DNA of 18,149 nt, from NCBI GenBank assembly GCA_945871415.1, contig CAMBWG010000005.1:1-18149 (forward strand). The letters run 5' to 3'. The translations under genes were made by a program, and so were the position numbers. This DNA comes from an uncultured Desulfovibrio sp. Its GTDB lineage: Bacteria > Desulfobacterota > Desulfovibrionia > Desulfovibrionales > Desulfovibrionaceae. Positions 1,914-18,149 of the stretch are shown here, piece by piece; positions within the stretch are counted from its first letter, which is position 1; each line of letters opens with the position of its first letter. A model generated the notes under the pieces. That model was not told the origin of the DNA. It saw only the letters and a program-made list of their open reading frames with translations, and ran no database searches.

Positions 1914-2197
1914 TACAGCCCTTCCCCGTCCCAGGGATTCCCCGCGCCGCGGCCCCAGACGCCGCTCCCGCCCCACTCAAAGCGGGATTGCAGGGCCTTT
2001 GCGCCCTGCGCGCCGCCGATGATGGTCACATCCTGCCAGGTAAGCGGTATCAGCCGCCCTTCATACAGACAGAAGCCCACCCACATGCACAGCACCACGG
2101 CAGTCACCAGCAGGCTTGCCACCCGCATGGCCGACCACTGCCCGTTGGGGCCGGTCAGAGTGTCGCGCATGGCCGCGCGCACGCCGTGAGTGCTCAT
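1913..2197 (-). CDS. holin-like phage membrane protein
   Basis: The 94-residue product begins MSTHGVRAAMRDTLTGPNGQ and has one clear membrane segment (VASLLVTAVVLCMWVGFCLY, about residues 27-46), then a second weakly hydrophobic stretch (TIIGGAQGAKALQ) and a Trp/Gly-rich polar tail. A small membrane protein directly after the endolysin, sharing an ATGA overlap with its stop, is where a holin or anti-holin is expected. The ribosome-binding site GGAGGACT before ATG 2197 is strong; ATG 2170 (MRDTL) is an alternative start and could give a dual-start product. The endolysin has no visible signal sequence, so a pore-forming holin is needed somewhere, and this is the best candidate in view. The family identity is not certain, and a non-holin membrane role is possible. 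Confidence 0.65.
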   Translation of the reverse strand: MSTHGVRAAMRDTLTGPNGQWSAMRVASLLVTAVVLCMWVGFCLYEGRLIPLTWQDVTIIGGAQGAKALQSRFEWGGSGVWGRGAGNPWDGEGL

Positions 2198-2763
2198 CAG
2201 AAGTCCTCCGCATATTCGCCCGTGACAAACTGCCTGCCCAGCTCAACCGCCCGGCGGCCCACCTGCGACCACCAGCGCGAGTTACGCAGGCCGCCTTCCA
2301 CCAGCAGCCAGCTCCCCCCGTTCATGGCACTGTCAATGAGGCCCAGCGTGGCGCGAAACTTCAGCAGGCCGTCCACCCCCAGATTGAAGGCCATGTTCAA
2401 CAGGGCCTCGGCCCGGGCAATATCGCCGGATTCAGCCAGCCGCCGGAACTGAGGACAGCGCAAAAAGAGCGATTCCCGGCAGGCGATCACTTCATCCAGC
2501 AGGGCGGCACGCGCCCGCTCCCTGTCCCAGCTCACACCCTGCTGCAACAGGGCCGCCATGAGGTGCGAACCGCGCAGCTTGCCGACCATGACCTGCCGCC
2601 GCAGCTCGGGGTCGTCGATATACTGCGGATGCGCGTCAAGGTTCGTGCCGTAGCCGATGGTGCAGGCTCCGGCAGTACAGAGGTAGGGACGGGCCCGGAA
2701 GCCCTCGTGACGTTCCAGCTGATTCAGCAGCTGCTGGCTGGGGATACCGTACAAATCAGACAT
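2197..2763 (-). CDS. phage endolysin, GH24 (T4-type) muramidase
   Basis: From ATG 2763 (ribosome-binding site GGAGGAAC about 9 bases upstream) the product is 188 residues. The family signature is clear near the N-terminus: Glu20 in RHEGFRARPYLC and then TAGACTIGYGT. Glu20 matches catalytic Glu11 of T4 lysozyme, Cys29 falls where T4 has Asp20, and Thr35 matches Thr26. The enzyme hydrolyses the MurNAc-GlcNAc bond of peptidoglycan during lysis. The lower half (RWWSQVGRRAVELGRQFVTG) matches the usual C-terminal R..W..GR..E pattern. No signal peptide or SAR anchor is seen, so it should depend on a holin. It is the first gene of the leftward late block, with about 200 bases of non-coding DNA before it that must hold the promoter. 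Its stop overlaps the next start (ATGA). Confidence 0.92.
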   Translation of the reverse strand: MSDLYGIPSQQLLNQLERHEGFRARPYLCTAGACTIGYGTNLDAHPQYIDDPELRRQVMVGKLRGSHLMAALLQQGVSWDRERARAALLDEVIACRESLFLRCPQFRRLAESGDIARAEALLNMAFNLGVDGLLKFRATLGLIDSAMNGGSWLLVEGGLRNSRWWSQVGRRAVELGRQFVTGEYAEDF

Positions 2764-2804
2764 GGCGACTGTTCCTCCGTGGCCCGGCAACTACTGAAAC
2801 GGAA

Positions 2805-3829: not shown

Positions 3830-4234
3830 TCACATTTTCAAGTTGTGAATGTTCTCGGCAATGACGGTCTTTCCGCCCGGTTCCGTGTGCACGTTGCCGC
3901 CAACAATCCGGCGTCCAGAATTTTTTGTTTCTGATCCCGCCAGCAGGGCGGCCCTGGCCGCCGCACGCACCGCTTCCGGCGCATTCTTCCATGCCGCCAG
4001 CATCTCCTTTTCTTCCGGCGTCAGGACGGGGTCGCCACTGCGCCGGCCGGTCAGAACGTACTGCACGTCTACGCCCGCCTCTGCTATGGCCGCTAGATAG
4101 GCGGCAAACGCGGGCAGCCGTTCTTTTTCATATTCAATCTGGCTTTTTTTGGTCGTTCCTGCCTTCTCGGCAAAATCTGTTTGATTCATTTTCAGGCGTT
4201 TACGTTCTTCTAAAAGTCTTTTTGAAATAGTCAC
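3830..4234 (-). CDS. phage repressor, XRE-type HTH (c repressor)
   Basis: The preferred start is GTG 4234, because a ribosome-binding site (TTGGAGAG) lies 6-7 bases before it, giving 134 residues. ATG 4252 is in frame but has no ribosome-binding site. Residues about 3-50 are a lambda-repressor-like helix-turn-helix (ISKRLLEERKRLKMNQTDFA, then EKAGTTKKSQIEYEKERLP), continuing AAYLAAIAEAGVDVQYVLTG, a pattern very common in repressors of Mu-like phages. There is no S24 peptidase domain, so inactivation by RecA-driven self-cleavage is not expected. The C-terminus (about 105-134) is a Gly-, Val- and Asn-rich stretch ending TVIAENIHNLKM. It diverges from the early operon, and two repeat systems lie in the 140 bases between them. 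It should hold the early operon off in the lysogen and probably controls its own promoter. Confidence 0.85.
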   Translation of the reverse strand: MTISKRLLEERKRLKMNQTDFAEKAGTTKKSQIEYEKERLPAFAAYLAAIAEAGVDVQYVLTGRRSGDPVLTPEEKEMLAAWKNAPEAVRAAARAALLAGSETKNSGRRIVGGNVHTEPGGKTVIAENIHNLKM

Positions 4235-4271
4235 CAAAATCTCTCCAAGCATATTGACTATTGGTCACTAT
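4227..4271. promoter_or_regulatory. inverted repeat pair over the repressor start, candidate operator
   Basis: ATAGTCACCAA at 4227-4237 and TTGGTCACTAT at 4261-4271 are inverted copies matching at 10 of 11 positions. They flank the in-frame ATG at 4252, and the left one covers the GTG start of the repressor. The right copy abuts an AT-rich core (TATATAG, 4269-4275) that could be a -10 region for the repressor promoter. Repressor autoregulation is an inference. Confidence 0.5.
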
Positions 4272-4374: not shown

Positions 4375-4743
4375 ATGCCCCGAAAAAAGACGATCTCCCC
4401 GGCCATCCCCCGGCCCAACCGCCCTCTGCCGTGCCTGCTGTCCCTGCCCGGCGTTGATTCCGCAACCATGGACGACGGTAGGATCATGCAGGAAGGGGAC
4501 GACCTGACCTTTTCCTCCGACATCGTGACCCTGCACCACACGGCTACCGGCGCCGCCTCCCTGCAAAAGCTGCTGCGGGATCTGGAGCAGCTGCCGTGTG
4601 TCTGCCGCTTTTCCTTTCTGCCCGACAGCATCACCCTGCGCCGCACGAAGGATGGTGGGGTGGAACCGTATGGCCCCTGCCGCCTGCGTTTCCGCATGGC
4701 CAATGACCCGGCGTGCGACCACTGCCCCCTCCATTCCGTGTAA
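4375..4743 (+). CDS. hypothetical protein, first gene of early operon
   Basis: This 122-residue product has a good ribosome-binding site (AAAGGAG six bases before ATG 4375) and is the first gene after the control region. The N-terminus is basic and proline-rich (MPRKKTISPAIPRPNRPLPC). The rest is a mixed alpha/beta sequence with a cysteine pair near the C-terminus (CDHC). No membrane segment or known motif is visible and I do not recognise the family. First position in the rightward operon means it is made earliest after derepression, which fits a regulator or a host-takeover protein, but nothing in the sequence proves that. Confidence 0.7.
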   Translation: MPRKKTISPAIPRPNRPLPCLLSLPGVDSATMDDGRIMQEGDDLTFSSDIVTLHHTATGAASLQKLLRDLEQLPCVCRFSFLPDSITLRRTKDGGVEPYGPCRLRFRMANDPACDHCPLHSV

Positions 4744-4796
4744 CGACATTGCACCGCCCTTACCAAAAAACAGTTCTTCTGAAAAGGAGAGGAAAA

Positions 4797-5006
4797 ATGG
4801 AAACCATCCGTACCGCCGAAGAAATCAAGCGCGATCTTGAGCGCGAAGGCCGCAGCATTGCCGATCTGGCCCGCTCCAACGGCCTGCGCCCGTCCGTGGT
4901 CTATGACCTGCTGGGCGGCCGCATCCGCGGCACCCGCGGCGAAAGCCACCGCGCCGCCGTGCTGCTGGGATTGAAGGACGGCACCGTTGAACAGCAAACC
5001 GTTTAG
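4797..5006 (+). CDS. BcepMu gp16-family small HTH DNA-binding protein
   Basis: From ATG 4797 (GGAGAGG just upstream) the product is 69 residues. The frame is open upstream to 4713, but that overlaps the previous gene and adds an unrelated tail. The sequence KRDLEREGRSIADLARSNGL, continuing RPSVVYDLLGGRIRGTRGESHRAAVLLGLKDG, is the typical pattern of the phage-associated BcepMu gp16 family: a helix-turn-helix, then the R..G..GE.H..A..LGLK signature. These proteins sit near the repressor in BcepMu-like phages and are thought to regulate early transcription, like Ner in Mu. It is a candidate ligand for the tandem repeats at 4285-4324. The family match is by eye. Confidence 0.85.
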   Translation: METIRTAEEIKRDLEREGRSIADLARSNGLRPSVVYDLLGGRIRGTRGESHRAAVLLGLKDGTVEQQTV

Positions 5007-8148: not shown

Positions 8149-9945
8149 ATGGACAAGGCACAAGCCCAGATCATCCACACGCTGGCTCAGGAACTGACGG
8201 CCAGCACCCCGAAAGGGCGCGGCGAACTGGTGCAGCGTGCCGCCCTGGCTTTGGGTAAAAGCGTCAAGACCGTTTACCGTCTGCTCAAAGAGGCGGGCTG
8301 GGAGACAGGTCGCAAAGCACGCAGCGACGCGGGACAAAGCGCCGTTGATGAAAAACTGGCTCTGACCGTGGGCGGCCTCGTAACACGAGCAACCCGCGCC
8401 AACGGCAAGCGCACGCTGACCATCGAGGGAGCCTGCCGCCTGCTTGAGGCTCAGGGCTACGGTGTGAAAAACGCCGAAACCGGAGAAGTCGCCATGCCAA
8501 GCCCTAAAACCATCAGCACCGCCATGCGCCGCCTGGGCTGTCACCCCGACCAGGTGGCGCGCGGCAAGGCCACAGGCCGCCAGCGGTCGGAACATCCGAA
8601 TCACGTCTGGGAGGTGGACAGCTCCGTGTGTGTGCTGTTCTACCTTCCCGGCTCCGGCGGCAAAAAGATGCGCCTCATGGATGAGCGCCTCTACAATATA
8701 AAGAAGCCCGGCCGCCTCGTGGAAATCGGTCGGCAGCGCGTAATACGCTACGTCGTCGTGGATCACTGCTCCCATGCCCTCTATGTGCGCTACGAACAGG
8801 CATCCGGGGAAGATGCCGCCGGAGTCCTTACAACTCTTATTGATGCCATGAGCGACCGTGGGCCGCGTGACCCCATGCACGGCGTGCCGCGTGTCATCTA
8901 CATGGACAAGAGCGGCGGCAACCAGTCCCGTCTGATCAGGAACTTCTGCGCCACCCTCGGCATCGACGTACAGTATCACGCTGCGGGCAGTGCCAGTGCG
9001 ACCGGCAGCGTCGAGGTCGCCCAGAACATCGTGGAACGTGAGTTCGAGAGCCGCCTGCGCTTCATGGAAATAGGGCAGCTGGCTCAGCTTCAGGAGGCGG
9101 CCGACAAATGGCGGCGGCACTTCAATGCCCATGCCCGGCATCGCCGTCTGGGCTGTTCCCGCAATCAGGCGTGGCTGCGCATCACACGAGAGCAGCTGCG
9201 CGTGGCCGAACGGGACGTGCTTACGGCCGTTGCCCACTGGGGCGAACAGGAGCGCACCGTGCAACCGGATTACACAATCCGGGTAGACACCCGGAGCCAC
9301 GGCGTACAGACCTATGACCTGCGCGTGCTGGGCCTGCACGGCGTGCATGTGCGGGACAAGGTCGCAGTGACGCTGAATCCGTTCAACGCACCGGAAATTG
9401 TGGTCAGCAAGGCCATGCCCGACGGTACGGAACTGCGTATCCACGTGCAGCCCATGCAGCGGGACGACTACGGCTTCGATGCCGATGCTCCTGTCATCGG
9501 TCAGGAATGGGGACGGCAGCAGTCCACCCCCGTGGAACGGGCTGTGGAAAAGATGGAAGCGCTGGCCACGGCGGATGGCTCCGCCTCCCGTCCCTGGGAG
9601 CATATCGACGCTATGGCCGATGTGCGCGAGGCCCCGCTGCATCTGCGCCGCGAAGGCACGCAGCTGGAGACCCCGGCCCCGGAGATTCCCGCCATGCCGC
9701 TTTCCCGAGCTCAGGCAGCGCAGAAGCTGCGGGCTATGGATGCCGCTCCCTGGGAGGCAGACGCCCGGGCCTGCATGTCCTTCCTGCGTGAAACCTACGG
9801 GGACGCCATTCCCGAAGAATCCCTTCCCCGGATTCTTGAAATGCTGCGCAACCGCATGGCGTTGCGGACACTCAGTCCACAGTCTGAAACGGCCCGTTGC
9901 CTGACATTCACCCCCCGGCAGGAGGCCCGCACATGCAGTGCTTAA
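8149..9945 (+). CDS. Mu-type DDE transposase (MuA-like)
   Basis: The product is 598 residues, close to MuA (663). The start ATG 8149 has a GGAGG site. N-terminal helices include a helix-turn-helix (LALGKSVKTVYRLLKEAGWE, residues about 34-53) and a second DNA-binding part around 85-135. The catalytic core starts at about 150: Asp157 in HVWEVDSS, Asp253 in VIYMDKSGG and Glu289 in GSVEVAQNIVE. Asp253 and Glu289 are separated by 35 residues, the classical DD35E spacing. A beta-barrel-like region (about 365-435) and a helical C-terminus that could contact the MuB-type ATPase follow. The enzyme joins phage ends to target DNA for integration and replicative transposition. Its stop overlaps the start of the ATPase gene. 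All catalytic residues are present. Confidence 0.95.
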   Translation: MDKAQAQIIHTLAQELTASTPKGRGELVQRAALALGKSVKTVYRLLKEAGWETGRKARSDAGQSAVDEKLALTVGGLVTRATRANGKRTLTIEGACRLLEAQGYGVKNAETGEVAMPSPKTISTAMRRLGCHPDQVARGKATGRQRSEHPNHVWEVDSSVCVLFYLPGSGGKKMRLMDERLYNIKKPGRLVEIGRQRVIRYVVVDHCSHALYVRYEQASGEDAAGVLTTLIDAMSDRGPRDPMHGVPRVIYMDKSGGNQSRLIRNFCATLGIDVQYHAAGSASATGSVEVAQNIVEREFESRLRFMEIGQLAQLQEAADKWRRHFNAHARHRRLGCSRNQAWLRITREQLRVAERDVLTAVAHWGEQERTVQPDYTIRVDTRSHGVQTYDLRVLGLHGVHVRDKVAVTLNPFNAPEIVVSKAMPDGTELRIHVQPMQRDDYGFDADAPVIGQEWGRQQSTPVERAVEKMEALATADGSASRPWEHIDAMADVREAPLHLRREGTQLETPAPEIPAMPLSRAQAAQKLRAMDAAPWEADARACMSFLRETYGDAIPEESLPRILEMLRNRMALRTLSPQSETARCLTFTPRQEARTCSA

Positions 9946-11093
9946 AACAGTTGCAAAGCGACCACGGCGTATCGTTGCGGGAGCTGGCAAGGGAACTGGG
10001 TATCAGCCCGGCCACGGCCCACCGGATGATCCACGGACAAAGAATGCCCAGCCGAAACCGTGAGCAGATACGCGATGGGCTGCTGACAATGTTTTCCCGG
10101 AGAGGGGCCTCGGAAGAGGACCTTCACAGGCTTGAAAAAGAACTCAATGCCCAGCTGACACCCAACAATAATGAAACCGAGAACGAAGGAGACGACATCA
10201 TGCTGTTAAGCAAGCAAAGCCTCAGCCCCGCGGCCAGACGCCACTTCAAGCTGATACGCGATCCGTTTGATGACCCCCGCAGCGAGCGCGAAGTCTTTTT
10301 GACCGATGACGCCCGCTACGTCCTGGGCTCCATGATGGACGCGGCCCTCCACGGCAATTTTCTGGCCGTGGTTGGCGAAAGCGGCAGCGGCAAGACAACG
10401 CTCCGGCGTCTCATGCTGGAGCGCCTCAAGACGGAAGGCGAGAACGTCATCATCATTGAACCGTACATCCTCACAACCGGCGGACAGGGCAAGGACGCAA
10501 AGCCCCTGCGTGCCGGGCACATTGCTGAAGCAATTCTTGCCGCCGTTGCCCCCGGCAGGCGCGTTCCCGCAAGCTCCGAAGCACGCAGCCGCCTCCTCCA
10601 TGAGCAGCTTCGCCAGAGTAACCGGGGCGGCAACCGGCATCTTCTGCTGATTGAGGAAGCTCACGACCTGCATACCCACACATTGAAGAGCCTCAAGAGG
10701 TTTTTTGAGCTTGAAGACGGACTTCAGCGCCTGTTGTCCATTGTTCTTATCGGGCAGACGGAGCTTGGCGTGAAGCTCTCCAGCTCCGGGGCCGATGTGC
10801 GCGAAGTCGTGCAGCGCTGTGACGTGGTGCATCTTCCCCCCCTGCGTGACGTGCCCGGGTACATCCGGCATCGGTTCAACTGTGCCGGGGTCGAGCTGGA
10901 TTCCGTATTCGAGCCCGACAGTCTGGATGAACTGCGTCAGCGCCTGATTGTCTCCCGCGGCGGCAAGGCTGGCGGTACGGATCTGGCGTATCCGCTGGCC
11001 GTGGCAAATCTTGCGACTCGCAGCATGAATCTTGCTACAAGCATCGGGGAACCGCTTGTGACTGCGGATGTCGTCAGGCAGGTGAAGGCATGA
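9933..11093 (+). CDS. MuB-like AAA+ transposition ATPase
   Basis: ATG 9933 has a strong AGGAGG site and overlaps the transposase gene by 13 bases; it gives 386 residues. Residues about 12-40 are an XRE-type helix-turn-helix (VSLRELARELGISPATAHRM), as at the N-terminus of MuB. An acidic linker follows (about 76-88), then the AAA+ domain: Walker A GESGSGKT (148-155), Walker B LLLIEEAHD (about 237-245) and a sensor segment (VLIGQTEL). It resembles the ExeA/MuB/TniB group. Such ATPases coat target DNA, stimulate the transposase and give target immunity. At 386 residues it is longer than MuB (312). ATG 10201, just after the linker, could in principle give a shorter product without the HTH. Confidence 0.93.
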   Translation: MQCLKQLQSDHGVSLRELARELGISPATAHRMIHGQRMPSRNREQIRDGLLTMFSRRGASEEDLHRLEKELNAQLTPNNNETENEGDDIMLLSKQSLSPAARRHFKLIRDPFDDPRSEREVFLTDDARYVLGSMMDAALHGNFLAVVGESGSGKTTLRRLMLERLKTEGENVIIIEPYILTTGGQGKDAKPLRAGHIAEAILAAVAPGRRVPASSEARSRLLHEQLRQSNRGGNRHLLLIEEAHDLHTHTLKSLKRFFELEDGLQRLLSIVLIGQTELGVKLSSSGADVREVVQRCDVVHLPPLRDVPGYIRHRFNCAGVELDSVFEPDSLDELRQRLIVSRGGKAGGTDLAYPLAVANLATRSMNLATSIGEPLVTADVVRQVKA

Positions 11094-11296
11094 GCGAAAA
11101 GGGCACGCCTCGCTTTCAGGCTTTCAGGAGCTTGGGAGGGGGATGGTTCATAGAGGATGGGCTGGACGGCAGCCGAGTTGCCGTCGTTTTTCATGGAAGT
11201 CGAGCCCCGGAAAAGACTGCGGCAATGGCGCGCGTCATGGTGGATGCCCTGAACAGGGCTGGAACCCGCGGGGGAACAAAACAGGAGAGTGACTAA
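11090..11296 (+). CDS. hypothetical small phage protein
   Basis: This 68-residue product starts at ATG 11090, overlapping the ATPase stop (ATGA), and its own stop overlaps the next start (TAATG). Coupling on both sides supports it as a real gene. The sequence has a beta-rich N-terminal half (FRSLGGGWFIEDGLDGSRVA) and a helical end. I recognise no family. Confidence 0.65.
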   Translation: MSEKGTPRFQAFRSLGGGWFIEDGLDGSRVAVVFHGSRAPEKTAAMARVMVDALNRAGTRGGTKQESD

Positions 11297-11907
11297 TGGA
11301 ATCGATTAACGGACACGACTACATGCGCGACAGTCAGGGCCGTCTGTGCCCCGTGGAAAGCGTCAGCGATCTGGACAAGATGCGCGACAGCACGGTGATG
11401 GAACTGGTGGAAAAGGCCCAGGGCCTCAGCGGCGTGCTGGCTGCGGCCAAGGCGGAAATGCTTGAGACAATCGAAACCTTCGTCCAGATCAGCGCGGAGC
11501 AGTACGACGCCAAGGTGGGCGGCGAAAAGGGCAACGTCTCCCTGGTCAGTTTCGACGGGCAGTATAAGGTACAGCGGGCAATGCAGGACAACATCACGTT
11601 TGACGAGCGCTTGAGCGTGGCTCAGTCCATCATCTCCGCAGTCCTGCGCGACCTGACGGACGGCTCCAGCTCCGATTTGCGCGCCCTGGTCGAATCCGCG
11701 TTCCAGGTAAACAAGGATGGACAGGTCAGCGCCGCCCGCATACTGGGCCTGCGCCGGGTCAAGATCAGTCATCCCCGCTGGGCGGATGCCATGAAAGCCC
11801 TGTCTGACTCCATCCAGCCGCTATACTCCAAGGCCTTCGTCCGTATCTACAAGCGGGACGCCAACGGAGGCTGGCAACCCATCCCGCTGGACATCTCCAA
11901 GGCGTAA
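11296..11907 (+). CDS. DUF3164 family phage protein
   Basis: The 203-residue product starts at ATG 11296, overlapping the previous stop. It shows the features of DUF3164, a family found in Mu-like phage early regions: a helical N-terminus (LDKMRDSTVMELVEKAQGLS), the central GNVSLVSFDGQYKVQRAMQD segment, a helical part, and LGLRRVKISHPRWADAMKAL near the C-terminus. The biochemical role is unknown. It sits where Mu carries its semi-essential early genes, between the transposition genes and gemA. No enzymatic motif is visible. Confidence 0.85.
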   Translation: MESINGHDYMRDSQGRLCPVESVSDLDKMRDSTVMELVEKAQGLSGVLAAAKAEMLETIETFVQISAEQYDAKVGGEKGNVSLVSFDGQYKVQRAMQDNITFDERLSVAQSIISAVLRDLTDGSSSDLRALVESAFQVNKDGQVSAARILGLRRVKISHPRWADAMKALSDSIQPLYSKAFVRIYKRDANGGWQPIPLDISKA

Positions 11908-11919
11908 AAGGAGGATATC

Positions 11920-12318
11920 ATGGCGCGAGCTACTGCCGGGCTGATCAAGGCGATCCACGCGGGCAAGCGCTCCCTGGGCATGGACAACGAAACCTACAGG
12001 GCTATGCTCATCAATCTTACGGGGCGTGAATCATGTTCCGGTATGACCGCCGATGAACTCAAAAAAGTGCTTGCCCACTTGCGGCAGGTGGGCTTTGCTC
12101 CGAAGCCCCCATCTCCCCAGGAACGTAAAATCCGCGCCCTCTGGCTTCTTCTGCATGAGGCCGGTCAGGTAAAGGACGCCAGCTTCAAGGCCATGCGAGG
12201 GTATATCCGACGTATGCTCCGGCATGACTCCCCCGCGGCAAGCAATGAGCTGGCTCAGGTTATCGAAACTCTCAAGGCATGGTGCCGCAGGGCCGGGGTG
12301 GAGTATGAGGGCTGCTAG
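11920..12318 (+). CDS. gemA: GemA-like regulatory protein (Mu gp16)
   Basis: ATG 11920 has an AAAGGAGG site. The 132-residue product begins with the family pattern LIKAIHAGKRSLGMDNETYR, then AMLINLTGRESCSGMTADEL, and continues through a KIRALWLLLHEAG segment typical of the GemA/DUF1018 family. In Mu, GemA affects host gene expression and DNA topology early in infection. The molecular mechanism is not settled. The gene overlaps the Mor-type gene by 14 bases in another frame, so the two are coupled, as in other Mu-like phages where gemA is directly followed by mor. Confidence 0.92.
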   Translation: MARATAGLIKAIHAGKRSLGMDNETYRAMLINLTGRESCSGMTADELKKVLAHLRQVGFAPKPPSPQERKIRALWLLLHEAGQVKDASFKAMRGYIRRMLRHDSPAASNELAQVIETLKAWCRRAGVEYEGC

Positions 12319-12625
12319 TCCCTCTCCCTCGGATGAGTTCCTGGCCGATCTGGAGCTGGTTCTGCGTGAGCAGGGAGTCGAGCCGGACAAGGCCAGAGCC
12401 GCCGCGGTATCCGTCGGCGTCCGCTGGGGTGGACAGTCGGTCTACATACGTCTCCGCGGACGTTACCTTGCCAGGGCCATTGACGCCGCATTCAATGGCA
12501 ACAACGCCGGAGAACTGGCAACGCGGTTCAGAGTCTCCCGCGCACAGGTCTACAAACTGCTGGCCAAAGCCCGCGAGGACACAGCCGCAGCTACTCCCGA
12601 GCAGGGCAGACTCCCAGGCACATAA
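12305..12625 (+). CDS. mor: Mor-type transcription activator
   Basis: The start ATG 12305 lies inside the end of gemA and gives 106 residues; the longer open frame from 12224 overlaps gemA too deeply. The pattern VRWGGQSVYIRLRGRYLARA, followed by IDAAFNGNNAGELATRFRVSRAQVYKLL, is the Mor/C family core: the GG..iYiP-like strand and then a helix-turn-helix at about 66-92. Mor activates middle and C activates late transcription in Mu. Here only one Mor/C-type gene is seen, and it is the last gene before the phage end, so it may act on the diverging late arm more than 9 kb away. A strong terminator follows. Confidence 0.9.
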   Translation: MRAASPSPSDEFLADLELVLREQGVEPDKARAAAVSVGVRWGGQSVYIRLRGRYLARAIDAAFNGNNAGELATRFRVSRAQVYKLLAKAREDTAAATPEQGRLPGT

Positions 12626-12646
12626 CGCATCGCCCACCACAAAACT

Positions 12647-12681
12647 AAAGGAGGTCGCCAGAATTGGCGGCCTCCTTTTTT
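12647..12681 (+). terminator. intrinsic terminator of the phage early operon
   Basis: Arms AAAGGAGGTCGCCA (12647-12660) and TGGCGGCCTCCTTT (12665-12678) pair over 14 positions with one G-T pair and a 4-base loop, followed by T residues to 12681. It lies 22 bases after the Mor stop and ends rightward transcription before the phage end. Confidence 0.9.
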
Positions 12682-12696
12682 ATGCCCTTTCCCCGA

Positions 12697-12805
12697 CATC
12701 CTCATTCCGCATTGTGTAATCCGATTACATTTGACCATCCCGGTACATGCCACGTCATCCCCATTTATCCCATCCCTAACCCCTCTCTTTTCTCGTCTGT
12801 CGTCA
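12697..12805 (-). repeat. phage end region with repeated GGATG sites and a palindrome
   Basis: On the - strand, GGATG occurs at 12775, 12760, 12740 and 12701 (first base, reading leftward). Two of these are part of longer copies: AATGGGGATGACGTGG (12764-12749) and AATGAGGATGTCGGGG (12706-12691) match at 13 of 16 positions, and GGGATGG...AAATG occurs twice (from 12776 and 12741). A perfect palindrome, TGTAATC-C-GATTACA, lies at 12715-12729. The stretch has no gene. Mu-like phages carry several transposase-binding sites within about 200 bases of each end, and this is the expected position, but the exact end (5'-TG on the - strand) is not fixed; one candidate is the TG at 12805-12804. Confidence 0.55.
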
Positions 12806-12894
12806 ATCTCCATACTGATGCGGGAGGAGGAACAGCCGTGCAGCAGCGGGAACAGCGTCAGCATGAGCAGGCACACGAGCGCGCGGGATTTCAC
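12802..12894 (-). pseudogene. tssJ: 5' fragment of T6SS lipoprotein gene tssJ, cut by the prophage
   Basis: The GTG at 12894 overlaps the TGA of the FHA gene (GTGA), so a coupled gene starts here. Its first residues are MKSRALVCLLMLTLFPLLHG followed by Cys21 and SSSRISMEID: a lipoprotein signal with an LHGC lipobox and then an S..I.ME-type strand. TssJ lipoproteins start this way and follow the FHA gene in HSI-2-type T6SS clusters. After about residue 31 the frame (open to 12550) becomes basic and unlike TssJ and then reads through the phage terminator, so the rest of the gene has been displaced to the other side of the prophage. TssJ anchors TssM to the outer membrane. The name rests on lipobox and position; only ~31 codons are visible. 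Confidence 0.75.
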
Positions 12895-14237
12895 TTTTCG
12901 TCTCCTTGGCGGTTAACAAAGGCGGGATGCAGCGTCCGTACCTGCATTTCATAGGCCCGGGCAAAGTCTTCCAGAAAAAAGGCGGCAAAGCCGTTGTCCG
13001 CGTCGCGCAGTCGCGCGTGCATGCGCGCATAGGTATTCCACAGGCGGCGCGTACGTAAAAAGCGTGCCGTGCCGACGGTATCCAGCGCCATTTCGACGGC
13101 CTTGGGGCTGATGCGCGTCAGCATGGCCTGAATGGCGGCGCGCGCTCCGGCCATCAGCCCCAGACTGTGACTGTGCAAATCCTCGAAGCCGCTTTGCATG
13201 GCCTGCGCGGGCGGCAGAAAATCGTCCTCCGGGGAGGCCAGCAGATAATGGAGCGCCGCTTTGCCCGTGGGTGAAAATTTCAGGGGATTGTTTCCGGCCA
13301 GCGTCATGGTGGTGACGGGCAGGCGCAGCTCGTTCTTGCTGTCGGCCCTGTTGCGCAGTGCCTGGAGCATTCCGTCTACCGAGGCCGTGATCAGTTCGGC
13401 CGCCCGGAGCATGATTTGCTCGCGTTCCGCCCGTGTTGCGGGAGCCGAAGCAAAGCCCAGCGCCCGGAAAAAGGCTTCCACCTCCGGCGAGGGCGCTTCG
13501 GGCCCGCCATCGCTTCGGGGCGGCTCCGCCGCCTGCGGATGGAGGTCGGGGACGGGCTCCGGCATCGCGGGCGGAGGGGCGGGCTGTGTTGCGGGCGGGG
13601 GCGTCTCCTGCGTCTCGGGAAGGGGCGCAACCTGTGTCGCGCCTGATTCCTGTTCGTCGATGTCCTCGTTCCAGTCTTCCGGGACAAGGGCGATTTCCGG
13701 CATGGAGGCAAGCGGCGCTTCCGTGTGATCGGCCTGAAGCGGCGTTTTTTCCGGCTCCGCCTCCAGCAGATCGCTATAAAGGCCGAGGCGCTTGCGCGCG
13801 TCGAGTTCGTCCTGCTGTTCCAGCGCCAGCAGAGGATCTTCCGCCAGAAGCTCCCCCTCGGGAATCAGGTCACCGGCCTGCATTTCCTGCCCGGACAGAT
13901 AGGAATCCGGTTTGTGCAGCAGTCGGGCCTGAATGCTGTATTCGCCTATGATATAGGTGTTGCCATGTTCTATCCGGTATTTTTTCCCTTTTTCCAGACG
14001 TTCTCTGCCAAGCGCGTTGTAGATGCCGTTTGTGCTGACATCTTCAATGGCAAAACCCGCATGTTCAAAGATGATCAGGGCGTGACGCCGTGAAATCTGC
14101 TTCGTCTTGTCGATAAGTATCCATTCGCATTCCTCGTCGCGGCCGATATAGCCGCCAACCTCGCTGAAAACATGCTGTATGCTGTCCTGACTGAGAGAAA
14201 ATTTCTGACGGCTGATAATCTCAAGCATAAGTTCCAT
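12891..14237 (-). CDS. tagH: T6SS FHA-domain protein (TagH/Fha-like)
   Basis: ATG 14237 is chosen for its AAGGGG site; the frame opens at 14267 without a good site. The product is 448 residues. The N-terminal FHA domain (about 5-95) contains GGYIGRDEECEWILIDKTKQ, ISRRHALIIF and STNGIYNA, the conserved GR, SRRH and TNG elements that bind phosphothreonine. A long acidic, proline-rich linker follows (about 110-250), then a helical C-terminal domain from about 255 (FFRALGFASA onward) with LKFSPTGKAALHYLL and LHSHSLGLMAGARAAIQAML, the pattern of the T6SS FHA C-terminal domain. Known FHA proteins act in the phosphorylation-controlled switch of T6SS assembly. It lies 59 bases after the sigma-54 activator and is coupled to the lipoprotein gene by GTGA. 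Confidence 0.92.
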   Translation of the reverse strand: MELMLEIISRQKFSLSQDSIQHVFSEVGGYIGRDEECEWILIDKTKQISRRHALIIFEHAGFAIEDVSTNGIYNALGRERLEKGKKYRIEHGNTYIIGEYSIQARLLHKPDSYLSGQEMQAGDLIPEGELLAEDPLLALEQQDELDARKRLGLYSDLLEAEPEKTPLQADHTEAPLASMPEIALVPEDWNEDIDEQESGATQVAPLPETQETPPPATQPAPPPAMPEPVPDLHPQAAEPPRSDGGPEAPSPEVEAFFRALGFASAPATRAEREQIMLRAAELITASVDGMLQALRNRADSKNELRLPVTTMTLAGNNPLKFSPTGKAALHYLLASPEDDFLPPAQAMQSGFEDLHSHSLGLMAGARAAIQAMLTRISPKAVEMALDTVGTARFLRTRRLWNTYARMHARLRDADNGFAAFFLEDFARAYEMQVRTLHPAFVNRQGDEK

Positions 14238-14296
14238 GAATATTTTCCCCTTTATAAAGCGTTCCATCTTTGAAAAAGGCGGAACGCGAGGCGGCG

Positions 14297-15781
14297 TCAG
14301 TCCGTATGCGACGAGGCCATGCGACGCCGGAGCGTGCGCGGGTGCACGTCAAGGGCGCGCGAACAGGCCTGCATATCGCCCCCGTAGAGCCGGAGAGCCT
14401 GCTGAATGAACCAGCGTTCCTGCATCTCTCTGAATTTTGCCAGAGAAATGCAGTGCAGCGTTTTTCCTGTGCAGGATTCCAGTATATCTGTCCCAAGTTC
14501 GACGCAGTCCGCGTCCGCCGTGTTGACGGCCCGTTCCACCAGAGATTCCAGTTCCCGGATATTGCCGGGATAGGAATAGCCCAGCAGCATAAGGAGCGCT
14601 TCCGGCGAAAAGCGCAGCGAAGATCGACCGGTTTTCCGGCAGCAGCGCTCGAGAAAGACCGCGCAGAGAGCGGGAATGTCTTCCCGCCGTTCCCGAAGCG
14701 GCGGAATATGTATTTTGAGAACGGCCAGACGGTGATACAGATCGCGGCGGAAGGCCCGCGTCTTCATGGCCTCGTCAACGTCCCGGTTGGTGGCGGCAAT
14801 GACGCGCATGTTGACGGGATGGAACCGGGTGCCGCCTACCGGGCGCACCTTGCGTTCCTGCAGCACCTGAAGCAGCGCAACCTGGAGCTGCGGCGGCATT
14901 TCGCCTATTTCGTCAAGAAAGACCGTGCCCCCCTCCGCGCTGCGCAGCAGACCTCTGGTCGTGGATACCGCGCCGCTGAACGCGCCTTTGACATGGCCGA
15001 AAAGCTCGCTTTCCAGCAGACCGGCCGAGAGCGCGCCGCAGTTGATGGCCAGAAAAGGACCGCCGCGGCGGTCCCCGGCCTCGTGCACCATGCGGGCCAG
15101 CAGGCTTTTTCCCGTGCCGGTTTCTCCTGTAATGAGCAGGGGCGCGTTTGAGGCGCTCACCCGGGCAATGGCCGCGCGCAGATTGTGCGTTGCGGGGCTC
15201 TCCCCGACGAGCGCCGGAAGCTGCCGCCGTTCCCTGTCCTCTTTCAGCCGGCGTACTTCCTTTTCCAGACTTTGCAGTGCATAGCCGTTCTGTTTGCGGC
15301 CGCGGGCCAGTTCCAGCAAAGCCCCGGCATAGAGGCAGAGGGTCTGGCAGGCGGCCTGCGCTCCGCGCGGGGGAGCTCCGTAAAGAGCAAGCGCGCATCC
15401 CGCGGCGCTGCCGCCGGGAATCTTGATGGGATAGGCCTTGCAGCTGCCGACCTGCGGCGACGTTGAAACAAACCGTGCCGATTCGGGAAGCTCGGAAAGC
15501 TGTGTAAACGAGGCGGCCAGCCCTGTATGCAGGCAGTAGCACAGGGGATCGTCCCAGCTTTCGGCCGACAGACGGGGCGTTTCTTCCTGCGACGTCGGCT
15601 CCTCGGGAAAACGACCGGCAAGAAAGAGCGTTTCCCCCGCGTAGTCCCGCAGATAGACGCCCGCGGCCAGAGCGCCGTCCATGACGCAGAGGGCTTCCGC
15701 CAGCGTCCGGGAGACGGCCGCATAGTCCCCGGCACTGGCGCGCAGGCGTTCAAGAAGCGTCGGCAGGAGGGGGGGCGTCAT
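14297..15781 (-). CDS. vasH: sigma-54-dependent activator of the T6SS cluster (VasH/Sfa-like)
   Basis: The 494-residue product starts at ATG 15781, overlapping the ClpV stop (ATGA). Residues about 1-160 form a GAF-type sensor domain. The AAA+ domain starts at about 190 (ALVGESPATHNLRAAIARVS) with Walker A GETGTGKS (219-226), Walker B TVFLDE (286-291) and the RRDLYHRL arginine-finger region (about 345-352). The sigma-54 contact loop reads GAFSGA (266-271) where most activators have GAFTGA. A Fis-type HTH ends the protein (about 465-486, GGDMQACSRALDVHPRTLRR). VasH/Sfa proteins sit between clpV and the fha gene in several T6SS clusters and drive hcp and related promoters with RpoN. No receiver domain is present, so control is presumably through the GAF domain. 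Confidence 0.9.
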   Translation of the reverse strand: MTPPLLPTLLERLRASAGDYAAVSRTLAEALCVMDGALAAGVYLRDYAGETLFLAGRFPEEPTSQEETPRLSAESWDDPLCYCLHTGLAASFTQLSELPESARFVSTSPQVGSCKAYPIKIPGGSAAGCALALYGAPPRGAQAACQTLCLYAGALLELARGRKQNGYALQSLEKEVRRLKEDRERRQLPALVGESPATHNLRAAIARVSASNAPLLITGETGTGKSLLARMVHEAGDRRGGPFLAINCGALSAGLLESELFGHVKGAFSGAVSTTRGLLRSAEGGTVFLDEIGEMPPQLQVALLQVLQERKVRPVGGTRFHPVNMRVIAATNRDVDEAMKTRAFRRDLYHRLAVLKIHIPPLRERREDIPALCAVFLERCCRKTGRSSLRFSPEALLMLLGYSYPGNIRELESLVERAVNTADADCVELGTDILESCTGKTLHCISLAKFREMQERWFIQQALRLYGGDMQACSRALDVHPRTLRRRMASSHTD

Positions 15782-18149
15782 GCCGGATGGTCCCCGGTAT
15801 CCGGACGGCAGGTAAGAACCCCCTGTTCCGGGTCCAGATCGACGTACAGTCCGGGATGCGGCCCGGGACGCCCCATGTTGCCGAGCAGCGCGGTTGCCAT
15901 CCGGGGCAGCAGCGAGGCATTGATGATGTGATCAATATTGCGCGCGCCGGTATCGACGGCCGTGCAGCTTGCCGCAATGGAAGAGACAACGGCGTCGCTC
16001 CAGGACAGGGGCACGCGGTGCTGGGCAAAGAGACGATCGGCAACGCGGGTCAGTTTCATGCCGACGAGTTCCCGCAGGATTTCCGGCCGCAGCGACATGT
16101 AGGGAACAATGGTCATGCGCCCAAGCAGAGCCGGACGGAAGAACTGCGTCAGGGCGGGGCGCAGCGCCTGCTCCAGCCGGAGCGGATCGGGCGGCGTATC
16201 GCCGTCGCACAGGCCGGCCACAATCTCGCTGCCCAGATTGGAGGTCAGAAAGATCATGGTGTTGCGAAAATCAATTTCTCGACCTTCGCCGTCGGCAAGA
16301 ACGCCCTTGTCGAAGACCTGATAAAAAAGGTTGATGACATCGGGATGGGCCTTTTCCACCTCGTCGAAGAGCACGACGGAATACGGCTGGCGGCGCACGG
16401 CTTCCGTCAGCCTGCCCCCCTCGCCGTAGCCGACGTAGCCCGGAGGCGAGCCGATGAGGCGCGAGATGGTATGCTTCTCCTGAAACTCGGACATATTGAT
16501 GCTGATCAGCATCTCTTCGCCGCCGTAAATCTCGTCGGCAATGGCCAGCGCCGTTTCCGTCTTGCCCACGCCCGACGGGCCGACCAGCAGAAAGATGGCC
16601 GTCGGGGCCTGCGGGTTGTTCAGGCCGGTACGCGCGGCCAGCACGGCCTTTTCCACCCTTTCCAGCGCATGATCCTGTCCCCGGATGCGCTGATGGAGGC
16701 GCTCTTTCAGGCCGGACAGCCTGTGCGCCGTATCTTCCGCGAGCTTGCCCAGCGGAATACCGGTCCATTCGGACACAATTTCCGCAACGAGCTGCGGCGT
16801 GACTTCATGGAAAACCAGCGGGGCGTCTCCCTGTTCGGCCTTCAGGCGCGCAGCTAGATCTTCCGGCGCGGGCTCTTCCCCGGCGGAAAGGGCGTTGTCC
16901 TGTCCGGCTTCTTCGGCGGGAACCGGGGCGTCCGTCGCGGGAGCGGCGTCGGGAGCGGGCTTTTCCCGCCGGGCCAGCAGGGCCTCCACCAGCGCTTTTT
17001 CCCGTTGCCAGCGCGATGTGATATCCTCGATGCGCTCCTGCAGTGTTGCGACGCGTCCCTGAAGGGCGGCATGGCGTGCGGCGTTCGACGCATCGTCATC
17101 CGCCGCCACGCCGTGGCTGCGATCCCGTTCCAGGGCGGTCAGTTCCCGCCGGATGCCCGTAAGTTCGTCTTCCAGATCGCTCAGCACGGCCGGTTTGGCC
17201 CCCAGACTGACCTTGACCCGGGCGCAGGCCGTGTCCAGCACGTCAACTGCCTTGTCCGGCTGCTGACGGCCGCTGATGTAGCGGGTGGACAGTTCCGCGA
17301 TGGCCCGCACGGCATCGTCCCGGATGTAGACGTGATGCGCCTGCTCGTAGCTGGGCACCAGACCGCGCAGAATGGCGACGGTTTCTTCCTGCCCGGGCTG
17401 ATCCAGACGCACCAGCTGGAAGCGTCTGGCAAGAGCCGCGTCCTTTTCAAAATATTTCTTGTATTCGCTCCAGGTGGTGGCGGCCACGGTCCGCAGCTCG
17501 CCCCGGGCCAGCGCCGGTTTGAGCAGGTTTGCGCCGTCGCCGCCGCCCGCGGCGTTGCCGGAGCCCACCAGCGTGTGCGCTTCGTCAATGAACAGGATGG
17601 TTGGCACGGGCGAGGCCTTGATTTCGTCAATGATGCCCTTGAGGCGTTTTTCAAATTCTCCCTTGACGGACGCGCCCGCCTGAAGACGCCCCATGTCCAG
17701 GCCGACAAGGCGGGTACCCTTCAGCACGTCCGGCACTTCGCCCCGGACGATTTGCAGGGCCAGTCCCTCCACAACGGCGGTCTTGCCCACGCCGGGATCG
17801 CCCACAAGAATGGGATTGTTCTTGCGGCGACGCGTCAGTATATCGATCATCTGGCGGATTTGCGGGCCGCGGGCAAAAACGGGATCAATGCGATTCTGCC
17901 GGGCTTCTTCCGTAAAGTCCGTGGCGTAACGCTGCAGACAGCCTTCATGTCCCGGGCCGGGGCCGGGGCGCTCGCTCTGCCGGGCGGCGGATTCGTTCAG
18001 ACCCGCCATGAGGCGTTTCAGCGCGTCGGCGGGGATCCTGTCCAGTTCTCTGAAAAACTTCATGGCGCTGTACCGGGAGGGATTGGCCAGCAGCGCCAGA
18101 ACGAGCGTGAAAACGTCGATCCGGTTGTGTCCGAGTTCCAGACTGGCCA
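15778..18149 (-). CDS. clpV: T6SS ATPase ClpV/TssH (5' end outside window)
   Basis: The frame is open beyond the ATG at 18063 to the window edge, and those 28 extra residues (GHNRIDVFTLVLALLANPSR) match the end of the ClpV N-domain, so the gene starts outside. About 789 residues are visible (full family length ~850-900). First AAA+ domain: Walker A GDPGVGKT (visible 116-123), Walker B ILFIDEAH (about 184-191). An M-domain with coiled coil and an Ala/Pro-rich acidic insert (about 398-435) follow. Second AAA+ domain: Walker A GPSGVGKT (523-530), pore loop PPGYVGYGEGG (about 568-578) and Walker B VVLFDEVEKAH. ClpV disassembles contracted TssB/TssC sheaths for reuse. It is the first gene of this operon in view and overlaps the activator gene by four bases. 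Confidence 0.95.
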   Translation of the reverse strand, partial: ASLELGHNRIDVFTLVLALLANPSRYSAMKFFRELDRIPADALKRLMAGLNESAARQSERPGPGPGHEGCLQRYATDFTEEARQNRIDPVFARGPQIRQMIDILTRRRKNNPILVGDPGVGKTAVVEGLALQIVRGEVPDVLKGTRLVGLDMGRLQAGASVKGEFEKRLKGIIDEIKASPVPTILFIDEAHTLVGSGNAAGGGDGANLLKPALARGELRTVAATTWSEYKKYFEKDAALARRFQLVRLDQPGQEETVAILRGLVPSYEQAHHVYIRDDAVRAIAELSTRYISGRQQPDKAVDVLDTACARVKVSLGAKPAVLSDLEDELTGIRRELTALERDRSHGVAADDDASNAARHAALQGRVATLQERIEDITSRWQREKALVEALLARREKPAPDAAPATDAPVPAEEAGQDNALSAGEEPAPEDLAARLKAEQGDAPLVFHEVTPQLVAEIVSEWTGIPLGKLAEDTAHRLSGLKERLHQRIRGQDHALERVEKAVLAARTGLNNPQAPTAIFLLVGPSGVGKTETALAIADEIYGGEEMLISINMSEFQEKHTISRLIGSPPGYVGYGEGGRLTEAVRRQPYSVVLFDEVEKAHPDVINLFYQVFDKGVLADGEGREIDFRNTMIFLTSNLGSEIVAGLCDGDTPPDPLRLEQALRPALTQFFRPALLGRMTIVPYMSLRPEILRELVGMKLTRVADRLFAQHRVPLSWSDAVVSSIAASCTAVDTGARNIDHIINASLLPRMATALLGNMGRPGPHPGLYVDLDPEQGVLTCRPDTGDHPA

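Follow-up and report, generated by a model that had tools for sequence, protein, structure and literature searches.

In Pseudomonas, type VI secretion system (T6SS) clusters of the HSI-2 type are ordered clpV, sigma-54 activator, fha, tssJ, tssK, tssL, tssM. Mu-type transposable phages have TG and CA ends, a target duplication of 5 or 6 bp and genomes of 36 to 39 kb with head and tail genes. In the transposable phage PM105 (Beetrevirus), the gene order is repressor, Ner-like HTH protein, transposase, MuB, DUF3164 protein, GemA and late activator, the last five being oriented towards the phage end, and the lysis genes are found on the other side of the repressor; its record opens with TGA and a GGGA-rich end. 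The Pseudomonas phage B3 is reported to duplicate 6 bp of its target (PMC8705779). Mu-like prophages with spontaneous release have been reported for Desulfovibrio piger (PMC12724379), that is, for the same host genus as the phage described here; the main text of that paper has no occurrence of "type VI" or "T6SS". Among the matches listed for the accessible literature, judged by titles and the starts of abstracts, there was no report of a Mu-like prophage splitting a T6SS gene.

The window, i.e., the whole stretch of DNA that we analysed (18,149 bases), is the entire contig C5 of a Desulfovibrio bin (2.56 Mb, 435 contigs, 79% complete). Its left 12.8 kb are prophage, with the contig ending inside the phage, and the host flank of the prophage on the contig measures 5.3 kb. 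We propose, with a probability of roughly 0.92, that transposition carried a B3-like phage of the Mu superfamily into codon 30 of the tssJ gene of one T6SS operon, the host being a gut-type Desulfovibrio close to D. piger. The features on which this reading is based are as follows:

2197 to 2790, minus strand: endolysin of the leftward lysis/late region (phrog_7, E 3e-8)
3830 to 4252, minus strand: phage repressor (phrog_8, phrog_2328)
4713 to 5006, plus strand: Ner-like HTH protein (phrog_925, E 1.8e-21)
8149 to 9945, plus strand: MuA-like DDE transposase (tblastn; rve domain at 30.4 bits, below the Pfam cut-off of 32.6)
9897 to 11093, plus strand: MuB-like transposition ATPase (AAA_22 and an N-terminal HTH; placed as the DNA transposition protein of PM105)
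11296 to 11907, plus strand: DUF3164 phage protein (PF11363, E 1.4e-70)
11920 to 12318, plus strand: GemA (PF06252, E 2.3e-26)
12288 to 12625, plus strand: Mor-type late activator, the last early gene (PF08765, E 2.2e-9; start uncertain, frame open from 12224)
12647 to 12681, plus strand: hairpin and T run after the last early gene, a probable terminator by folding energy, possibly in both directions
12736 to 12805, plus strand: terminal region with repeated ATCCC/TTATCCC, predicted as probable transposase-binding sites (similar elements at related ends)
12805, plus strand: early-end terminus of the phage, ending in TCGTCA (compared with seven related prophage ends in the genus)
12806 to 12811, no strand: predicted 6-bp target duplication ATCTCC (from six of six relatives; second copy off the contig)
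12806 to 12894, minus strand: 5' stub of tssJ with signal peptide, lipobox LHGC and about nine mature residues (homology stops at the junction; compared with protein P0246)
12891 to 14267, minus strand: T6SS FHA protein, TagH/Fha (PF20232, E 2.1e-44; FHA, E 3.1e-12; open frame)
14297 to 15781, minus strand: Sfa-like sigma-54 activator of the T6SS operon (PF00158, E 1e-63; open frame)
15778 to 18147, minus strand: ClpV/TssH ATPase (AAA_2, AAA_lid_9, ClpB_D2-small; 5' end beyond the contig)

The gene content of the left part confirms the transposable prophage of the original prediction. Both a DDE transposase and its AAA+ partner, the pair expected of a Mu-type phage, are present, the rve Pfam score alone lying below its cut-off, and the layout is that of PM105. 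Rightward genes run in the order Ner-like HTH protein, phrog_1368 regulator, phrog_4623 protein (function unknown), transposase, MuB-like ATPase, DUF3164 protein, GemA and Mor-type activator. Leftward, the repressor is joined by the endolysin, on the far side of the repressor as in PM105, and by a phrog_6861 protein (no function in PHROGs), which we presume to resemble a secreted endonuclease. The PHROG search gave no match for four of the small proteins farther to the left. With tblastn, the transposase matched 58 phage records, each at less than 60% identity (33.9 to 37.1% among the 30 matches listed; about 36% for PM105), and it is 66 to 70% identical to relatives in G017, G022 and G013. 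It or a relative was found in 9 of the 79 genomes of the genus, at ten places including the window's own. A viral contig collection searched with the transposase yielded none, the genome search having found these relatives. Unlike B3 and PM105, which are Pseudomonas phages, the window phage has a Desulfovibrio host, and no nucleotide match of window positions 11920 to 12894 was found in the phage collection. With no DNA match in that stretch and a transposase about 36% identical, the phage has a B3-like layout and is not a member of the genus Beetrevirus. Integration at a fixed attachment site was considered and set aside: no site-specific integrase was found among the 15 phage proteins searched against families, the late part of the phage lying off the contig.

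The position of the phage end follows from related prophages of the genus. In the window, 41 nt lead from TTATCCC to the terminal TCA, exactly as in G017, G024, G006, G064, one of two prophages in G091 (G091a) and G063; the early end of the second (G091b) has the TCA terminus, with TTATCGC at the matching place. In ungapped alignment, the window end is identical to that of G017 at 31 of 41 positions and to the six others at 21 to 24. G017 carries the nearest prophage with its early end on a contig, its other end being off the contig; G022 and G013 were left out of the set of early ends, as their contigs stop before it. The motif TTATCCC-N31-TCA occurs once in 151,211 bp (the window and seven T6SS stretches, both strands), at the window phage end. 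The terminal region additionally contains a 17-nt direct repeat (71%). Before it, the hairpin after the last early gene folds at -25.1 kcal/mol (z -5.1) on the plus strand and at -21.1 kcal/mol (z -4.2) on the minus strand. A consensus terminator scan of 12300 to 13000 returned no site, possibly since the T run is consumed by A-T pairing in the stem.

Both ends could be recovered in six relatives (G024, G006, G064, two in G091, and G063), all of which have TGA and TCA termini and a flanking 6-bp direct repeat. The two ends were located by sequence motif alone in G024, G091a and G063. In G006, G064 and G091b, one end was located via the repeat beside TG or CA, where the repeat is not independent evidence; these three are weaker support for the 6-bp rule, and their repeat-located ends resemble the other ends. 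Seven places matched TGATGCGCG, of which three were taken as late ends and four were dropped because the terminal sequence did not continue alike. The original prediction had expected a duplication of 5 bp; 6 bp were found in every relative with both ends, in agreement with the report on B3 (PMC8705779). At the window locus, the single phage end on the contig ends in TCA. The relative in G024 spans 37,199 bp between its two ends, whereas 12.8 kb of the window phage are visible. A search of the bin that contains the window (G000) with the terminase-like protein of G024 found none; the same query also missed G022 and G013 and was weak in G017.

On the host side, a lipoprotein gene starts at 12894 on the minus strand, its GTGA overlapping the stop of the FHA gene. 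The stub reads MKSRALVCLLMLTLFPLLHGCSSSRISMEI, and tssJ character is gone after codon 29/30. Compared with the tssJ gene of G098, 70 of 89 bases are identical before the junction and 20 of 89 after it. The corresponding values are 61 and 23 for G094, 63 and 24 for G097, and 61 and 22 for G092, so that identity past the junction is at about chance level in all four relatives. The full frame (12550 to 12894) has no Pfam match, including to TssJ (PF12790), and retains only the lipobox and about nine mature residues; by homology of this stub, it is a truncated gene of the TssJ family. A first TssJ protein search (207 matches) gave no allele close to the stub among the 120 matches listed. Querying with the TssJ of G098 gave 85 proteins, among which P0246 (217 aa; 28 member sequences on 9 contigs) agrees with the stub at 28 of 29 residues and then runs on as an ordinary TssJ. 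The sole difference is residue 30, which is Ile in the stub, Val in P0246 and Ile in P0245, and the codon for this residue in the stub spans the phage junction. Public data thus contain an uninterrupted allele almost identical to the stub, from which we take the insertion to be probably recent. Consistent with this, open frames are seen for the named early genes of the phage and, on the host side, for fha, the activator gene and the visible part of clpV.

The homology break coincides with the independently located phage terminus at 12805. We conclude that the insertion into tssJ, as claimed by the original prediction, is real. Of the interval in which it had been placed (12690 to 12894), positions 12806 to 12894 stand as host remnant, while 12690 to 12805 belong to the phage. 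The coincidence also bears on whether an assembly or binning error joined a phage contig to a T6SS contig. A fragmented bin (435 contigs, 79% complete), in which the downstream T6SS genes were not found, would be compatible with such a chimera, but phage and host are joined exactly where relatives place the phage terminus, a base that a random misjoin would not be expected to hit, and we regard this explanation as very improbable. Additionally, virions of Mu carry about 2 kb of host DNA, and the longer host flank of the window, at 5.3 kb, speaks for a chromosomal insertion.

The operon beside the phage was compared with its relatives. Searched with the FHA protein at E 1e-20 or better, the genus gave 8 matching genomes out of 79, one of them the window's own, and an order-level search added G048 as a good match; G050, a marginal match (38%, FHA domain only), was set aside as an FHA relative. 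Scanning a genome contig collection with the FHA protein produced 39 pattern matches, none of which was confirmed as a relative; the relatives came from the separate genome search. The nearest genome found with the same operon is G098, of the same genus (FHA protein 80% identical), whose TssJ (P0241) carries the public-source label Desulfovibrio piger. In all eight comparison genomes with the operon (G098, G094, G092, G097, G010, G064, G086 and G048), an uninterrupted tssJ frame directly follows the FHA gene. The start of tssK follows tssJ in seven of the eight (recognised by pattern, except in G092, where the sequence was read by eye); none was found by pattern in G086. Genes resembling tssL and tssM, assigned by order and length, come next in G010 and G098, which thereby share the complete gene order of the Pseudomonas HSI-2-type cluster. 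The HSI-2-like arrangement that had been predicted is thus present in relatives. On the contig itself, clpV, the sigma-54 activator, fha and the start of tssJ make up the initial part of this order; unlike in the Pseudomonas cluster, a prophage interrupts it within tssJ.

We also searched the bin for the far side of the insertion. The tssJ family gave two matches, both in other clusters (contigs C3 and C216), and the tssK family gave two on the same contigs. The tssM genes of G010 and G098 had no match in the bin, in a search run without positive control. Junction DNA matched itself and eight weak sequences (E 0.5 or more). The predicted other junction, ATCTCC/TGAYG (slash at the phage border), occurred once, on C35; this match was rejected, as it lies inside a long open frame that is not TssJ-like by eye. 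As the bin is 79% complete, little can be read into the failure to find the far phage end, the remainder of tssJ, or tssK, tssL and tssM. With the far side not found in the bin, the phage may adjoin a deletion or rearrangement. If the insertion proceeded as proposed, the B3-like phage would have transposed into codon 30 of tssJ and duplicated the 6 bp ATCTCC, and the rest of tssJ, followed by tssK, tssL and tssM, would lie beyond the far phage end.

On C3 (L020) and C216 (L021), a small protein, which we take to be PAAR-like, tssJ and tssK stand in a row, unlike in the window operon. The C3 cluster has a ClpV-sized open reading frame of its own, and the neighbours and tssK genes on both contigs differ from the window operon type by eye. 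A complete tssJ elsewhere next to tssK, which the original prediction had named as evidence against the insertion, does therefore occur in the bin, but by these differences the genes belong to other T6SS clusters, of which the bin has at least two, and do not refute the insertion. Because of them, the cell need not lack every T6SS.

In the lysogen, the proposed insertion would remove TssJ and, by polarity, cut tssK-L-M off from the clpV-side transcript. The T6SS of the window operon would then be non-functional, while other T6SS clusters of the genome may stay active. In the Sci1 system of E. coli, a tssJ mutant is reported to regain Hcp release with wild-type TssJ, and not with a loop deletion (PMC3213119). 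This result, together with the likely polarity of a phage of about 37 kb (the size in G024) with a hairpin near its end, leads us to consider loss of the window-operon T6SS likely. The insertion itself would also be compatible with a working T6SS, in which the paralogues on C3 or C216 supply TssJ or TssJ is dispensable, and tssK-L-M are transcribed from another promoter. Two complete tssJ genes are indeed found elsewhere in the bin, and Acinetobacter baumannii is reported to assemble a T6SS without TssJ (PMC10564176). However, the paralogues come from clusters that differ by eye, Hcp release in E. coli Sci1 was restored by tssJ complementation (PMC3213119), and the Acinetobacter exception depends on replacement proteins specific to Acinetobacter (PMC10564176). 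A working T6SS in this lysogen therefore appears unlikely to us.

The original prediction further tied phage excision or transposition to T6SS function. Such a reversible switch (active lysogeny) could draw on the location of the phage and on the uninterrupted, near-identical allele in public data. The six related prophages, however, sit at six different 6-bp targets, with no sign of a fixed attachment site, and Mu-type phages transpose by copying, with precise excision known to be rare for Mu. We found no support for the claim, and a regulatory role of this kind is hardly credible. The phage lysis genes on the contig share their orientation with the T6SS genes, and late read-through from the phage into tssK-L-M upon induction is possible. 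That transposable prophages create a T6SS on/off polymorphism among gut Desulfovibrio strains, with induction possibly transcribing tssK-L-M from the far phage end, is speculative, and we give it little credence.

A T6SS gene of Desulfovibrio here carries a B3-like transposable prophage whose insertion is resolved to the base and probably abolishes function; for this phage group, the comparison also yields a 6-bp duplication rule and a terminal motif within the genus. The insertion adds one more case of transposable phage mutagenesis, a process already well known. Its main interest is the likely strain-level knockout of one T6SS; otherwise it is an ordinary phage insertion. If such insertions were common, T6SS presence in gut Desulfovibrio would be a trait of strains rather than of species.

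The related prophages allowed some additional observations. In G024, the prophage (C6, 18539 to 55737; L034, L032) lies within a CRISPR array, with copies of the repeat GTTTCAATCCACGCCTCCGCGCGGGAGGCGAC on both sides: 10 within 700 bases of one end, and the last one 36 bases before the other. Its duplication, ACTGGG, spans the end of a repeat and the start of a spacer, so that the phage splits a spacer. One of the two G091 prophages (L052; G091:C1:2709223-2711043) has a TAA inside its transposase frame and keeps both ends and the 6-bp duplication. In G017 (C33; L029:13452-13499), the phage end falls at the 3' terminus of a small host gene, whose stop codon seems, by eye, to come from the terminal TGA of the phage.
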